Position numbers and translations under genes: made by a program
Shown: positions 32,870 through 38,781 of the stretch, in pieces
How the letters are laid out: every line of letters starts with the position of its first letter
Position numbering within the stretch: position 1 is the first letter of the stretch
Assembly: GCA_016521575.1 (NCBI GenBank)
Contig: JAEKDP010000003.1
Coordinates: 124,001 to 188,000, forward strand
From: Rhodobacteraceae bacterium F11138
Lineage (GTDB): Bacteria > Pseudomonadota > Alphaproteobacteria > Rhodobacterales > Rhodobacteraceae
Length of the DNA stretch: 64,000 nt
Direction of reading: 5' to 3'
Notes under the pieces: generated by a model
What the model was told of the DNA's origin: nothing
The model's database searches: none
Seen by the model: the letters and a program-made list of their open reading frames with translations, nothing else

Positions 32870-35350
32870 ATGTATGAATCGTTCTTCGGCCTGACGGCGC
32901 TGCCATTCAAGATCACGCCTGACCCGGCCTTTATCTACTGGAACAAGCAGCACCGCCGCGCGGCCAGCATTCTGGCGTTCGGGATCGAGCAGCTTGTGCC
33001 GATCACGGTGGTGACGGGCGATGTCGGGGCGGGAAAGACGACCCTGCTGCAACAGTTTCTGGAAGACGCCCCGGCGGATATGACCGTCGGGCTGATTTCG
33101 AATTACTGGAGCGGCATGGGCGGCCTGTATCAGTGGATACTGAACGCCTTTGATTTGCAGGCCAGCGGCAACGAAGTCGAATTGTTTCGGGTGTTTCAGG
33201 ATTTTGTGGTCCAGGAATACGCCGAGGGTCGGCGGTGCGTCCTGATTGTCGATGAAGCACAGAATGTTGCGGATGCCGATCTGGAACAGCTGCGGATGTT
33301 GACCAATATCAATGCGGGCAAGGATTCGCTGTTGATGCTGTTTCTGGTCGGGCAGCCGCAGTTGCGCGACCGTTTGCGGCAACCGAACAACAATCAGATC
33401 GCCCAGCGGGTCGGCGCGTCCTTTCATCTCAAGGCGATGTCTGCCGAGGATACCTGCAACTATGTCCGCCACCGGCTCAAGGTTGCGGGCGCGGAAGATG
33501 AAATTTTCGACGATGCTGCGTTGAAACGTATTCATGAGGTGTCGGGCGGGGTGCCGCGTCTGGTCAATGTGGTTTGCGAACTTGCGCTTGTGGCCGCGTT
33601 CGGGGATGAGGTCCGGCACATCGACGGGGCCTATCTGGACGCGTTCCTGAAAGAGGCCGCGGAAAGCGGGATGATGGATCACCTGCCCGTCACGCTGGGC
33701 CTGCAAGACGATGAAAGCCCGGTCAGGCCGGATGCGTCGCAACCCTCGCCGCCTTTGGCCATCCCCCGGTCAGGGCAGGGGGCGCAATGGATCCGTCTGG
33801 TTGACGATCCCGTGGCCGAACCGGCCGAGAGGAAACTGGACCGGCCAAGCCCGGCGGCCCGTTTTGCGGACCCGGCAGCACCGGCCACGCAACCGACCGC
33901 GTCCGAGGATGCCAGCATCATGGAAAACCTCATGGCGCCCAGCTTGGCGCGGCGCACGGCTGCGCAACAAGAGCCAGAGGCGGCCAGCGCCCCCCCGGAA
34001 GTCGCCGCCATGACGGATGAACCGCTGGTGGATGACGCCACCGACGAGCAGAACGACGAGGCAGCGGATCAGTATCGTCCGGATGAGTCTGAACTGGTCG
34101 ATCTGCCGGAGATCTTTGAAAAGGTCGCGGAACCCAAGGCGCACGAGCCAGCCCCGGATGTAGCCCCGGTGGACCAGGATGCGGCGGTTTCCGGCCCAAA
34201 GGACACTGATGAAGATCCGGTCATCCCGGCGGATGCTGAAACGCCCGCGGCGTCTCTGACGGCGCGAGACGTGATATTTGCAACCGTGGATCACGGTCTG
34301 GATGCGGTGTTGGTTCTGCTTCTTGCGGGCGCGGTCTATTCGGGCGGGGTCATGGCCTTGCGCGATGCCAGCCGCGCGCCCCAGGCCGGGCAAGGGGGTG
34401 CGGAAATGCCCGAAGCTGCGCCTGATCCCGGCGGGGCAGAGGCACCGGGCAATCCGGGCATCGCGCCAGACAAGATCAGGTTTGATCCGCCGGTTCCGCT
34501 GGATGACCCGGATGGGGCGGCCTTGCTCGACCGGGCGCTGAACGGTGGGGACAGCGCGCCGCTGGAGTATGCCCGGGCCGCCCTGCGCGGTGAGCCGCGT
34601 GCGGCCTATTACCTTGGACAGCTGTATGAAACCGGGGACGGTGTGCCGCGGGATCTGGCCTTGGCGCGGGCGTGGTATGGGTTGGCCGGACCGGATGTGC
34701 GCAGTGCGCGGCGGCGGCTGACAGAACTGGGGGCCCCGGAGCCGGGTTCTCTGGCGGCTCCTCACCCGGTGCTGGGGGGGCTTTTGCCGGACGGCAGCGG
34801 GGAATTCATCTGGACCGCTGGTAAAGGCGCAGACGCGGCGCTGTATCTGTTGGAACTGGCACAGACCCCTGACGGCCCCGTGCGGCGCTTGCCGCCGCAA
34901 TCGCTTTCGGCGGTGCGGGTGCCCGATGTTGGGGATGCGCGTCTGTGGCGGGTGGTTTCGGTGGACCCGGAAACCGGACGCTATGCCGTCTCGGGTTGGC
35001 ATCTGCTGAGCGCAGACACCGCAGCGGTTTATGCCGGTCCGGTCGCGACGCCATTTGATGTGGCCCCATTTGTCACCGTGGTCTTGCCTGCGGACATCAC
35101 ACCGGCGCAGAAAACGCTGGCGACCGAGGATCTGATTTCGGCGGGGTTTCAGGTCAACACCCGCGAGGGCGGGGCCGGAGCGGGTTCCGAGCCGCTGATT
35201 GCCCATGCCTATGAAAGCGACAGCGAGATGGCGAAACGCGTGGCCCGGCTGCTGGGAGCGGAGGCGGCGATCAAGCTGGAACCAAATCCGGGGCCGAATG
35301 GTGCGCCCCCCTTGCCGGGCGAAATTCTGGTGACCTACCCGACAAAATGA
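32870..35350 (+). CDS. ExeA-like AAA ATPase fused to a membrane segment, Sel1-like repeat and C-terminal extension
   Basis: Protein of 826 residues. Residues 1-270 form an ExeA/GspA-type AAA domain: MYESFFGLTALPFKITPDP opening, Walker A GDVGAGKTT at about 50-58, Walker B CVLIVDEAQN at about 123-132, and GVPRLVNVVC as sensor 2 region. Residues 280-465 are acidic, Pro/Ala-rich and probably disordered. A single membrane helix lies at about 476-496 (VLVLLLAGAVYSGGVMAL). Then a Sel1-like repeat (about 578-606, YYLGQLYETGDGVPRDLALA) and a C-terminal domain with VTVVLPADITPAQKTLA. The topology puts the ATPase in the cytoplasm and the C terminus in the periplasm. No secretin or GspB gene is adjacent. 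Confidence 0.82.
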   Translation: MYESFFGLTALPFKITPDPAFIYWNKQHRRAASILAFGIEQLVPITVVTGDVGAGKTTLLQQFLEDAPADMTVGLISNYWSGMGGLYQWILNAFDLQASGNEVELFRVFQDFVVQEYAEGRRCVLIVDEAQNVADADLEQLRMLTNINAGKDSLLMLFLVGQPQLRDRLRQPNNNQIAQRVGASFHLKAMSAEDTCNYVRHRLKVAGAEDEIFDDAALKRIHEVSGGVPRLVNVVCELALVAAFGDEVRHIDGAYLDAFLKEAAESGMMDHLPVTLGLQDDESPVRPDASQPSPPLAIPRSGQGAQWIRLVDDPVAEPAERKLDRPSPAARFADPAAPATQPTASEDASIMENLMAPSLARRTAAQQEPEAASAPPEVAAMTDEPLVDDATDEQNDEAADQYRPDESELVDLPEIFEKVAEPKAHEPAPDVAPVDQDAAVSGPKDTDEDPVIPADAETPAASLTARDVIFATVDHGLDAVLVLLLAGAVYSGGVMALRDASRAPQAGQGGAEMPEAAPDPGGAEAPGNPGIAPDKIRFDPPVPLDDPDGAALLDRALNGGDSAPLEYARAALRGEPRAAYYLGQLYETGDGVPRDLALARAWYGLAGPDVRSARRRLTELGAPEPGSLAAPHPVLGGLLPDGSGEFIWTAGKGADAALYLLELAQTPDGPVRRLPPQSLSAVRVPDVGDARLWRVVSVDPETGRYAVSGWHLLSADTAAVYAGPVATPFDVAPFVTVVLPADITPAQKTLATEDLISAGFQVNTREGGAGAGSEPLIAHAYESDSEMAKRVARLLGAEAAIKLEPNPGPNGAPPLPGEILVTYPTK

Positions 35351-35351
35351 A

Positions 35352-35380
35352 AAACCCGGCTGTGAAAGCCGGGTTTCTTT
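35352..35380. terminator. Bidirectional intrinsic terminator between convergent genes
   Basis: Perfect 10-bp stem AAACCCGGCT / AGCCGGGTTT with a five-base loop, flanked by A-rich and T-rich tails (TTTCTTT). It starts two bases after the AAA ATPase stop and 18 bases before the TAXI gene's stop, so it can end both convergent transcripts. Confidence 0.9.
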
Positions 35381-35397
35381 GGGCGCGCTGCACGAAT

Positions 35398-36459
35398 TCA
35401 ACAGCCGATCGATTCGCAGATCCGTTGCCGATAGGCCGAATTCGCGGCGCTGTCCGGGGCCGCCTGTGCCGGTGTGGCCGGGGCGTCTCCTTCGCAGACC
35501 AGATTATAATTGGGGTCCAGACCGGCATTGACACAGCCGCCGATGTTCCAGCCCGGAGGCAGATCGCTCAGATCCACCTGCTGCCATTTCGGATGCCCTG
35601 TCTTGCGCAATTCGTCAAAGCGGGTGGCAATCACATTGGTGATGTCCGATACGGCCTTGCAGCTGGCGCGGTGGTACGCGTTGCGGCCGGGGTCGTATTC
35701 ATAGGTCATCAGGACAGCCTTGACCGCGATCACGTCGACGGCCTGATCCTGAAACGGATAGGCGTCCGCAGGGATTGTTCCGGGCTGATAGACCGCCTGC
35801 AGGGTGGCATCATTGATCGGCAGCAGGTGGAATTTCGCAGCGTCGATGCGGGGGGACAGAAAGATCTCGGTCGGCGCTCCGGCCACATAAAAGAAGGCAT
35901 CGATCTGTCCGGCCAGCAGCGCGGTCAGCGATGCTTCGGCATCGATGGTCCGTCGCTCTGACGGGTTGACCTGCGCCAGATCCAGCACCAGCGAAGCGGT
36001 CAGAAACGTGCCGCTGTCCTCGACGCCGATTGCCACTTTCTTGCCGTTCAGATCCTCCAGCGACTTCAGATCGCGGCGGGCCAGGATATGCACTTCTTCG
36101 TTATACAGTGGAAACGCGATGCGCACGCCCTTGACGGCCCGCGCGACACCTGGATCGTCGGCGGCAAAGGTCTTGAGATATTCCAGAACGTCCGACTGCA
36201 CGATTCCCAATTGAGTGAACCGGCGTTTGCGCACACCCAGGAAATTTTCCAGCGAACCCGCGCTTTCATGCACGTTCAGGGTCACGCCGCATTTTGCGGC
36301 GGCCTCGCTAATGTTTCTTCCGAACTGTATGTAGGTCCCGCTGGGGCCACCCGTCAGGATGTTTTTCTCGAATTCCTGCGCCTGTGCCGGACCCACAAGG
36401 CAGCCCAGGGTGGCGGCAAGCGCCAGCAACCGTGTCGTGAACGTGGATTTCAGTCTCAT
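35398..36459 (-). CDS. TAXI family TRAP transporter solute-binding protein
   Basis: Periplasmic binding protein of 353 residues. A signal peptide ends at about residue 27 (GCLVGPAQA-QEF). ILTGGPSGTYIQFGRNISEA is the opening strand and loop of the TAXI fold, and VAIGVEDSGTFLTASLVL and IDAFFYVAGAPTEIF are further family landmarks. TAXI proteins normally feed a fused TRAP membrane subunit, but none is encoded here. A C-terminal extension of about 60 residues carries several cysteines (CVNAGL, CEGDAP, CESIGC) separated by an Ala/Pro linker, which is unusual. It lies 33 bases downstream of the coiled-coil gene and is probably cotranscribed with it. Confidence 0.88.
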   Translation of the reverse strand: MRLKSTFTTRLLALAATLGCLVGPAQAQEFEKNILTGGPSGTYIQFGRNISEAAAKCGVTLNVHESAGSLENFLGVRKRRFTQLGIVQSDVLEYLKTFAADDPGVARAVKGVRIAFPLYNEEVHILARRDLKSLEDLNGKKVAIGVEDSGTFLTASLVLDLAQVNPSERRTIDAEASLTALLAGQIDAFFYVAGAPTEIFLSPRIDAAKFHLLPINDATLQAVYQPGTIPADAYPFQDQAVDVIAVKAVLMTYEYDPGRNAYHRASCKAVSDITNVIATRFDELRKTGHPKWQQVDLSDLPPGWNIGGCVNAGLDPNYNLVCEGDAPATPAQAAPDSAANSAYRQRICESIGC

Positions 36460-36492
36460 TCTATTAACTCCAATTCAATCTGTTCAATGCGT

Positions 36493-38781
36493 TCAGCAGG
36501 GGCCCAGGGATCGCACCAGGGCAACAAGCGTCTGTCGGTTGATCTGGCCAAAGCTTTCCCGCAGCGCGTCCGTCGGGCACGCGCCCTGAACCAGCAGGGT
36601 TCGCAACTGCCTGACGCGCGCATTGCCGGCAGCGGGCAGACCGGGGGCATTCTGAAGCGCCGCGGCCACCAGCGTCGGGTTGCGCCCTTCGCCCATGGCC
36701 AGCGGTTGGGCTGTATCGGGCGCAGAGGGTGTATCTGACGGGGCGCTCTGGGCGGCGGACAGGCTGTTGCGGGCCGCGTCGATCTGTTGTTGCAGCGCGG
36801 CCAGCTGGGCCTGACCATCGGTGCGGGCGCTGGTCAGTTCGTCCAGATCCGCCCGGATCTGATCGCGCTGGGTTTGCAGCTGCGCAATTGCCGCGCGCCC
36901 GTCCGCGATCTGCCGGTTCAGACTGTCGGCCTGTTGGCGGGTTTCGGCCAGCGCCGCCTGACCGGCCTGTTCCTGTCGTTGCAGCCGAGCCAAGCGCGCC
37001 TGCATTTGCTGCGCTTCTTCGGATTGGTCCTGCTGGTTTTCCTGAACCTGACCTTGCAGGCTGGCGACCTGTTTTTCCAGCTCGGCCTTTTGCTGTGTGG
37101 TTTCTGCAAATTCGGTTTTGGCAGCCTCCAGCGTGGCCTGTTGTTGGGTCAGTTCATCCTGCAGATCGGCCAGCCGGGCCTGGGCCTCTTTGGTTTGCGC
37201 GGCTGTCTGTTTGATCTGCTCGGCCTGGGCTTCCAGCTTTGTGTTGTTGTCCGAGGCGCGCGCCTCCATCTGCTGCAGGTCTGCGGCTTTGGCCTGAATT
37301 GTCTGCTCCAGTTGCGACTGCTGGTCCTGCAATGCGGCGACCTGTTCGGTCAGTCCGGCCTTTTGGCTTTCGGCTGCGTCCAGTTCGCTCTGCATTCCGG
37401 TCAGGCGGGATTGCGCTTCGGTGACGCGGGCTTCGGTCGCTGTGATCAGCTGGGCCTTTTCCGCCAAGGCCTGATCTGCTTCGCTCAGCCGCGTCTTGCG
37501 CTCGGCCAGGGCCTGTTCAAGATCCGCCAGCACGGCATCGCGCTCGGCGGCGGCGGATTGCTGTTCTTCGGTCGCGGCGGCAATTTCGGCCTGAAGCCCG
37601 GCCAGTTCATCGGCGCGCGCCGCAGCGGTTTCCTGTGCCTGCGCCTCCTGCGCTGAAAGCGTGGCAATGCGGTCTTCAGCCGACTTGGCCTCGGCATTCA
37701 GCGAATCGATGCGGTTCGTCAATTCGATGTCGCGCGCTTCCAGTTCTGCGATTTCAGCCTTGCGCCCTGCAATGCGCTCTTCGAGATCGCTCAAGGCGGC
37801 CGATTGTTCCCCGGTTTGGTCCGCAGCGGGCTGGGTTTCTGCGCGTTCCTCTTGCAGCGCCGCCAGTTCGCTTTGCGCGGCGCTCAGCGCGCTGCGTTGT
37901 TGATCCAGTTCGGCGGTCAGTGCCGTCAGGTCCTGCTGACCGGCTTCGATCTGGGCGGCAAGGGCTTCGGATTGCTGGGAAAGCTGGGTCAGTTTTTCCT
38001 GTTCCGCCTGGATGGCCGCCTGTTTTTCTTCGGCCTGCGCGGTCAGGTCGGCCAGCGCGGCTTCTGCTTCGGACCTGGCGGCCTGGGTGGCGTTCATTGC
38101 GGCTTCGACTTCGGCGCCGGCGGTGGCAAGTCGAATGTTGTCGTCTTCGATCTGGGCCAGTTCTTTCTTGGCCTGTTTCAGTTCGTCGTTGATTGCGTTG
38201 ACTTCGTCCTGGGCCTGCATACGGCTGGCGCGGGCTTCGTCGCGGGCTGTTTCGGCGCGGGCCAGTTCGTCCTGCGCCGCCCGCAGGGTTTCGGCGACTT
38301 CGGCCAGCTGGGCCTCTTTGGCTTTGATCTCGGCACTCAGATCAGCCTGTTGCGCGGTTGCTGCGCGGGCGCTGTCGGTTTCAGCTTGCAGGTTTTGCAG
38401 CTGCTGTTGCGCGGCTTCGATGTCGGCGGTCAACCCGTCCTTGCGCGCTGTCAGCTCGGCCAGTTCGGCAGCCGCCGTGTCGCGCGCCTGAACCGCGGTC
38501 GCACGGGCTGTCTCTGCCTGTGTCAGAGCATCCTGGGCTTGTTGCAGTTTCGCTGTCTGAGCTTCGCGCGCGTCTCTTGCGTCGGCGATATCCTCTTCCA
38601 GCGCGGCAATATCTTCTTCCAGCAATGCGATGATCCGCCGGAACGACGCGGCCTGTTCCGATAATGCCTGTGTGTCTTCCTGTGTCGCCGGATCCGTCTG
38701 TTGAGCGGCGGCGGCTTCTGGTTGCATGGCCCAAAGGCCCATGAGCAACGCAACACCCGACAATCGCATGTAATCACCCAT
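36493..38781 (-). CDS. Large secreted coiled-coil protein of unknown function
   Basis: Protein of 762 residues. I start it at ATG 38781 because GGGGGAAG precedes it; an in-frame frame start upstream adds 30 residues. A signal peptide (MRLSGVALLMGLWAMQPEAAAA) sends it to the periplasm. From about residue 35 to 670 it is nearly continuous coiled coil, extremely rich in Ala, Gln and Glu, with heptads such as LEEDIAALEEDIADARDARE. A short C-terminal globular part (about 690-762) ends LVQGACPTDALRESFG and LVALVRSLGPC, with two cysteines. Cotranscribed with the TAXI protein gene. I do not recognise a named family; the coiled coil alone matches many unrelated proteins. Confidence 0.8.
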   Translation of the reverse strand: MGDYMRLSGVALLMGLWAMQPEAAAAQQTDPATQEDTQALSEQAASFRRIIALLEEDIAALEEDIADARDAREAQTAKLQQAQDALTQAETARATAVQARDTAAAELAELTARKDGLTADIEAAQQQLQNLQAETDSARAATAQQADLSAEIKAKEAQLAEVAETLRAAQDELARAETARDEARASRMQAQDEVNAINDELKQAKKELAQIEDDNIRLATAGAEVEAAMNATQAARSEAEAALADLTAQAEEKQAAIQAEQEKLTQLSQQSEALAAQIEAGQQDLTALTAELDQQRSALSAAQSELAALQEERAETQPAADQTGEQSAALSDLEERIAGRKAEIAELEARDIELTNRIDSLNAEAKSAEDRIATLSAQEAQAQETAAARADELAGLQAEIAAATEEQQSAAAERDAVLADLEQALAERKTRLSEADQALAEKAQLITATEARVTEAQSRLTGMQSELDAAESQKAGLTEQVAALQDQQSQLEQTIQAKAADLQQMEARASDNNTKLEAQAEQIKQTAAQTKEAQARLADLQDELTQQQATLEAAKTEFAETTQQKAELEKQVASLQGQVQENQQDQSEEAQQMQARLARLQRQEQAGQAALAETRQQADSLNRQIADGRAAIAQLQTQRDQIRADLDELTSARTDGQAQLAALQQQIDAARNSLSAAQSAPSDTPSAPDTAQPLAMGEGRNPTLVAAALQNAPGLPAAGNARVRQLRTLLVQGACPTDALRESFGQINRQTLVALVRSLGPC

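Follow-up and report, generated by a model that had tools for sequence, protein, structure and literature searches.

Known Systems and the Locus Studied

Proteins of the TAXI family are usually read as parts of transporters, and the periplasmic binding proteins AioX and ArrX, from another family, are used as sensors. A peptidoglycan-binding domain is a feature of the ATPase ExeA. TRAP and GltS have been described as partners of TAXI proteins in the available text of PMC11574862, PMC12344293 and PMC12632250. For VcGluP, the accessible part of PMC11574862 gives Y45, S75, Q93, E125 and Y200 as the glutamate-contact residues and reports that Y45, Q93 and S75 matter, while changing E125 or Y200 has little effect; the ligands of other TAXI systems are 2-oxoglutarate or orthophthalate according to the same part and to that of PMC12344293.

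We analysed a locus in which a TAXI protein has as its constant companion a coiled-coil protein, with an AAA ATPase as a frequent neighbor. No description of this gene set, with or without the ATPase, was found in the open-licence literature, and our results suggest an apparently undescribed sensing or envelope-control module. The reading we favor, tentatively and with somewhat less than even confidence, is that of a periplasmic two-protein receptor unit, made of the coiled coil and a glutamate-class TAXI protein, which would act as a sensor or adaptor and for which the ATPase would be the likely output in many Rhodobacterales.

Organization of the Locus

The three genes stand together in the window, i.e., the whole stretch of 64,000 nucleotides that was analysed, and a check of the open reading frames found them where the initial annotation had put them. 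The ATPase gene (32870..35350, + strand) encodes an ExeA/XrtA-type AAA ATPase fusion of 826 amino acids and, at its 3' end, meets a two-gene unit of the opposite strand, so that the stops are convergent. In this unit the coiled-coil gene (36493..38781, − strand; 762 amino acids, exported and Ala/Gln-rich) comes first, and the TAXI gene (35398..36459, − strand; 353 amino acids), coding for an orphan solute-binding protein with a signal peptide and a Cys-bearing tail, follows 33 bases downstream. Between the convergent stops lies a terminator-like stem-loop of 12 pairs (35350..35378, reported on the − strand), in agreement with the terminator proposed there before. The ATG giving the 762-residue coiled coil is preceded by what looks by eye like a Shine-Dalgarno stretch; a farther ATG would give 792 amino acids.

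Constant Pairing of the Coiled Coil with TAXI

Used as a search seed, the ATPase tail gave matches in 19 of 120 genomes, five of them below E 1e-9; since these were mostly short Sel1 matches, the TAXI protein was taken as the seed. It was aligned with six orthologues and then used to search named genomes, which gave 216 relatives; the best 80 were used, corresponding to 53 Rhodobacterales and 27 Rhizobiales loci (two metagenome records were assigned by the TAXI tree). The coiled coil was represented by a profile of its C-terminal domain, made from the last 62 residues in seven genomes. At all 80 loci (the best 80 of 216 relatives) this domain immediately precedes TAXI in the same orientation, which argues against the possibility, raised earlier, that the coiled-coil gene is independent of TAXI.

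Because the 80-locus set was seeded by TAXI, both profiles were also run over the same 394 sampled Rhodobacteraceae genomes. TAXI was found in at least 14 of them and the coiled-coil domain in at least 15, these counts being lower bounds since the best few candidates per genome were scored. In each of the 14 TAXI genomes the domain lies beside TAXI, the gap from one matched stretch to the other being 28-79 bp, and the 15th domain match (G728) is weak and partial. The co-occurrence has a Fisher p of 7.6e-25 when genomes are treated as independent and kinship is ignored. Found in 14 of 394 genomes, the pair has a patchy distribution in the Rhodobacteraceae, and this TAXI clade is present in Rhizobiales too. 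One orthologue, in G549, carries an internal stop. A class-wide search with the A1 query and a strict limit found 3 of 385 genomes and is too sparse for mapping the range.

Pairwise distances of TAXI and of the coiled-coil domain are correlated in Rhodobacterales (r 0.68, 0 of 2000 permutations; 51 of the 53 loci), as would be expected for genes travelling together, and such a correlation is compatible with the two proteins making no contact. In the TAXI tree Ruegeria occurs in two places (L079, L083 and L085 versus L089 and L092) and so does Jannaschia (L070 and L071 versus L082); nearest neighbors by coiled-coil domain agree inside each Ruegeria group. These split genera and agreeing neighbors suggest that the pair may have been transferred between lineages as one unit. 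TAXI orthologues are also found on large plasmid records, NZ_CP023549.1 of Rhodobacter sp. CZR27 and NZ_CP067132.1 of Paracoccus seriniphilus.

Apart from the ATPase, the flanks of the pair in Rhodobacterales are shuffled. At E 1e-10, and omitting one reading frame antisense to TAXI, the TAXI family recurs at 53/53 loci, the ATPase at up to 31/53 and any other family at no more than 22/53, these other families sitting at scattered places. In Rhizobiales the pair lies between genes for IalB (PF06776) and YccV-like proteins on one side and genes for glutamine synthetase and PII on the other, the last two, recognised by sequence, being near the pair at 23/27 and 22/27 loci; L116 (6660-7797) and like regions of other Rhizobiales loci show this arrangement. 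As the whole stretch is generally syntenic there, neighboring genes are weak evidence. In Sinorhizobium meliloti, locus tags close to glnA and glnB pointed to SMc00950/RgsG. RgsG was considered as a member of the pair and set aside, for it is described in the available text of PMC7327166 as an IalB-domain protein and polar growth factor, and matches the IalB neighbor instead.

The coiled coil itself gave matches of coiled-coil type in Pfam and NCBIfam, all below the cut-offs. Its length varies widely: counted from the first start codon, it ranges from 289 to 1072 residues at 46 of the 53 Rhodobacterales loci (five truncated or doubtful reading frames and two missed loci being omitted) and from 331 to 514 residues at the 27 Rhizobiales loci. 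By eye, most Rhodobacterales coiled coils begin with a signal-like sequence, and those of Rhizobiales with a hydrophobic helix resembling an anchor. The conserved part is the C-terminal domain (36496..36690, − strand), 65 helical residues holding the only two cysteines of the protein, 735 and 762, which are invariant in 23 rows. No convincing family match to this domain was found by sequence in Pfam, NCBIfam or the PDB sequences; a Pfam match of one member to PT-TG (E 0.0019) was set aside as chance. The domain is predicted to be compact and helical, with pLDDT block means of 85-96 over residues 11-80 of the joined chain described below.

The TAXI Protein, Its Pocket and the Question of a Transporter

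The TAXI protein scores 124.2 bits with TRAP_TAXI (TIGR02122), over a curated cut-off of 84.35, and cysteines 348 and 353 confirm the Cys-bearing tail noted earlier. In Rhodobacterales the C-terminal extension (35401..35535, − strand; amino acids 309-353) finishes with an ICxxxGC-like motif; in Rhizobiales it finishes with a Lys-rich helix that has no Cys. Four cysteines are invariant in the 58 alignment rows, and the Rhodobacterales tail has two more. The predicted fold, taken from the joined-chain model, resembles the solved glutamate-binding TAXI proteins (Z 28.5 to VcGluP, 9ibo, over 276 residues at 2.6 Å); AioX and ArrX structures appear in the same search at Z about 13.

The five glutamate-contact residues of VcGluP, Y45, S75, Q93, E125 and Y200, align with Y43, S69, Q88, E121 and Y191. 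Among the best 80 of 216 relatives, Y43, Q88, E121 and Y191 are kept in 80/80 and S69 in 79/80, with Ala in L106. By comparison, the TAXI paralogues that are linked to TRAP in this genome retain 4, 3, 2 and 1 of the five, the one with 4/5 being L001, which is paired with a TRAP permease. We infer that the ligand is an amino acid of the glutamate class; conservation of the pocket leaves the ligand unfixed, because the effects of E125 and Y200 in VcGluP are small and other TAXI ligands differ, as reported in the available parts of the studies cited above.

Such a pocket is also what one would expect if TAXI served uptake, passing glutamate on to some permease, TRAP or not, whose gene lies elsewhere, while the coiled coil merely holds TAXI. 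A distant permease could serve this TAXI protein, the available text of PMC12344293 refers to orphan TRAP binding proteins, and this genome has four TRAP_fused permeases over the cut-off. However, each of these four adjoins its own strong TAXI gene, and the nearest TRAP permease match on the contig of the orphan TAXI lies about 50 kb off, with 30.7 bits, below the cut-off. This speaks against a TRAP membrane subunit pairing with TAXI from elsewhere, an outcome that the initial annotation had considered. Over the 7 genomes examined, no TRAP permease above the cut-off was found adjoining TAXI, and sub-cut-off DctM-like matches lie at a distance of roughly 10 kb in G107 (97.5 bits) and roughly 18 kb in G106 (61.9 bits). 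By neighborhood, then, TAXI is not a TRAP subunit, as had been suggested. A search for GltS (PF03616) gave no match in 9 of 11 genomes, that of the window included; G106 has the gene on a different contig, and G035 has it some 700 kb from TAXI. With a coiled coil as the adjoining partner at 80/80 loci, again among the best 80 of 216 relatives, we consider the uptake role unlikely.

The ATPase: Domain Structure and Optional Linkage

The ATPase combines, in order, an N-terminal ATPase domain, an acidic and Pro-rich linker, one transmembrane helix, and Sel1-like, FN3-like and probable LytR_C-like domains. Pfam and NCBIfam recognised AAA_22 and one Sel1 repeat; Walker A is at amino acid 50 and Walker B at 125. 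By hydropathy there is one strong membrane segment (34304..34360, + strand; amino acids 479-497), which bears out the single helix of the earlier description, as the Pfam match does its Sel1-like repeat. The Sel1 repeat (34595..34687, + strand; amino acids 576-606) scores 31.1 bits with PF08238, over a cut-off of 30.7, and the predicted fold of this region superposes on 6onw (Z 13.3, 76 residues, 1.2 Å). The FN3-like domain (34742..35014, + strand; about amino acids 625-715) was recognised by its predicted fold (Z 10.0 to 3mpc, 87 residues, 2.5 Å), a Pfam search giving no match in this stretch. The terminal domain (35069..35341, + strand; about amino acids 734-824), present in the window ATPase and in 4 of the 17 other aligned rows, is probably LytR_C-like, judging from a fold resemblance and profile scores below the Pfam cut-off: PF13399 matched the relatives L066 and L067 at E 0.006 and 0.002 (17.9 and 19.3 bits against a gathering cut-off of 22.2) and gave no match in the ATPase tail of the window, L064 or L065. 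For this domain Foldseek returned 2m5y at E 0.005, which we take to be the LytR_C-type C-terminal domain of Rv0431. A structural check of the ATPase C-terminus thus yields a Sel1 and an FN3-like domain, and only perhaps a LytR_C-like one.

In NCBIfam the nearest family is the XrtA/PEP-CTERM-associated one (TIGR03015), with 240 bits, below the curated cut-off of 324.5. No peptidoglycan-binding domain was matched by sequence in Pfam or NCBIfam, and the GspB profile (T2SSB, PF16537) matched 0/7 genomes and likewise 0/14 control genomes. Among 18 aligned ATPases, three (L076, L084 and L085) have arginine in place of the Walker A lysine, which suggests that they may be past ATP hydrolysis though the gene is kept, and that hydrolysis may be dispensable in some members. 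In four of the 18, a coiled-coil-like insert is seen by eye after the transmembrane helix.

The initial annotation expected the three genes to co-occur; they are co-located beyond chance, and the constant part is the coiled coil and TAXI rather than one fixed trio. Among the best 80 of 216 relatives, the ATPase is convergent with TAXI at 32 of 52 Rhodobacterales loci (one of the 53 was too short) and was not found beside the pair at the other 20 nor at any of the 27 Rhizobiales loci. Of the genomes lacking it at the locus, 21 were searched for it elsewhere, 7 being from Rhizobiales and 14 from the 20 Rhodobacterales. A full-length relative turned up in one, a tail-only match in two, and a short ExeA-type ATPase lacking the tail in six, with some overlap among these groups. 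In the 7 Rhizobiales genomes searched, no ATPase relative was found anywhere at E 1e-15. Across the 394 Rhodobacteraceae genomes the ATPase tail was detected in at least 9, seven having it beside the pair in convergent orientation and two having no pair; its co-occurrence with the pair has a p of 4.3e-10.

These results bear on a role in envelope polymer export or wall remodelling, in which the ATPase would be the engine and the coiled coil and TAXI its periplasmic guides. The nearest ATPase family being the XrtA/PEP-CTERM-associated one, as well as the Sel1, FN3-like and LytR_C-like domains of the tail, would fit such a machine. So would the two further proteins with a Sel1-FN3 tail in G048 (L054, L055), one of them without the ATPase part, which lie near genes for a Wzz-kinase, a Wzy-type ligase and sugar-nucleotide enzymes, and also near glycosyltransferase genes and the HlyD and ABC exporter genes of type I export. 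The gene set may have a cell-wall role. However, an engine absent beside the pair at all the Rhizobiales and many Rhodobacterales loci, the lack of any further gene family recurring beyond 22/53 Rhodobacterales loci and the lost Walker A lysines make this machine an unlikely explanation.

A Proposed Receptor Unit and Its Possible Output

The receptor or adaptor reading remains the best one because the pocket is conserved, no TRAP permease is adjacent and the coiled-coil partner is fixed. According to it, TAXI would bind a glutamate-class amino acid in its Venus-flytrap pocket and form with the coiled coil a two-protein periplasmic receptor. The coiled coil would be held in the envelope, apparently anchored by its N-terminal helix in Rhizobiales and exported in Rhodobacterales, and its two-cysteine C-terminal domain would most likely carry or read TAXI. 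The unit would sense or adapt, and would not feed any transporter. In many Rhodobacterales the single-pass ExeA-like ATPase with its Sel1/FN3-like tail would be the likely lineage-specific output or partner, a role made plausible by the convergent linkage and by the coiled-coil-like inserts of four members. The ATPase missing from Rhizobiales loci and the absence of the pair from 2 of the 9 genomes that have the tail count against this reading. We modelled the C-terminal domain and TAXI as a joined chain with AlphaFold2, from an alignment of 58 rows of which 16 were joined, and obtained a pTM of 0.78, which falls between rough estimates for docked and for free domains and gives no ground for claiming an interface. 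What we observe is the genes, their constant pairing, the optional ATPase, the conserved pocket and the lack of a TRAP permease next door; a physical contact between TAXI and the coiled coil, a signalling role and the ATPase as output are what we infer.

In a bolder version, which we regard as rather improbable, the locus would encode a ligand-gated envelope machine: TAXI would close on its glutamate-class ligand, the rod would relay this over tens of nanometres via the C-terminal domain of the coiled coil, and in Rhodobacterales the ATPase would be switched and act on the wall or on a surface polymer. Less likely still is a purely structural scaffold, in which the TAXI fold has been co-opted to cap the coiled coil passively and ligand binding is irrelevant; the constant pairing, the extra conserved cysteines and the tail of TAXI would suit it, but the TAXI pocket residues are kept in 79-80 of 80 orthologues, a degree of conservation that the TRAP-linked paralogues in this genome do not reach. 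That independent genes lie together by chance is hardly credible: the ATPase is indeed on the opposite strand, inconstant and, in 2 of its 9 genomes, unaccompanied by the pair, but its tail is convergent with the pair in the other 7, and the counts for the coiled coil and TAXI (80/80 loci, 14/14 genomes) already speak against it.

Taken as a receptor unit, the pair offers a way to test how amino acids, or glutamate derived from the wall, might be detected in the periplasm of alphaproteobacteria.

Comparison with Known Systems

Compared with the binding proteins of TAXI-TRAP systems, such as VcGluP and TtGluBP of Thermus, the TAXI protein described here shares the fold, the export signal and the five glutamate-contact residues, but it has no adjacent TRAP permease and differs by its constant coiled-coil partner and by its extended, Cys-bearing tail. 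AioX and ArrX are likewise periplasmic binding proteins without a transporter for which signalling was proposed; they belong to another binding-protein family, and no histidine kinase is seen in the present unit. As for the ATPase, it has in common with the XrtA/PEP-CTERM-associated ATPase and with ExeA/GspA an N-terminal ATPase domain and a single hydrophobic segment, whereas it falls below the TIGR03015 cut-off and carries a tail built from Sel1 and FN3-like domains and perhaps a LytR_C-like one. Finally, the available text of PMC12344293 describes in TAXI-GltS of Bordetella pertussis another TAXI protein that departed from TRAP to a new partner and that also has a helical region, but within the same chain. 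Here the partner is a separate coiled coil and not a GltS symporter, and this TAXI clade, with its glutamate pocket, suggests a third type of partner after TRAP and GltS.
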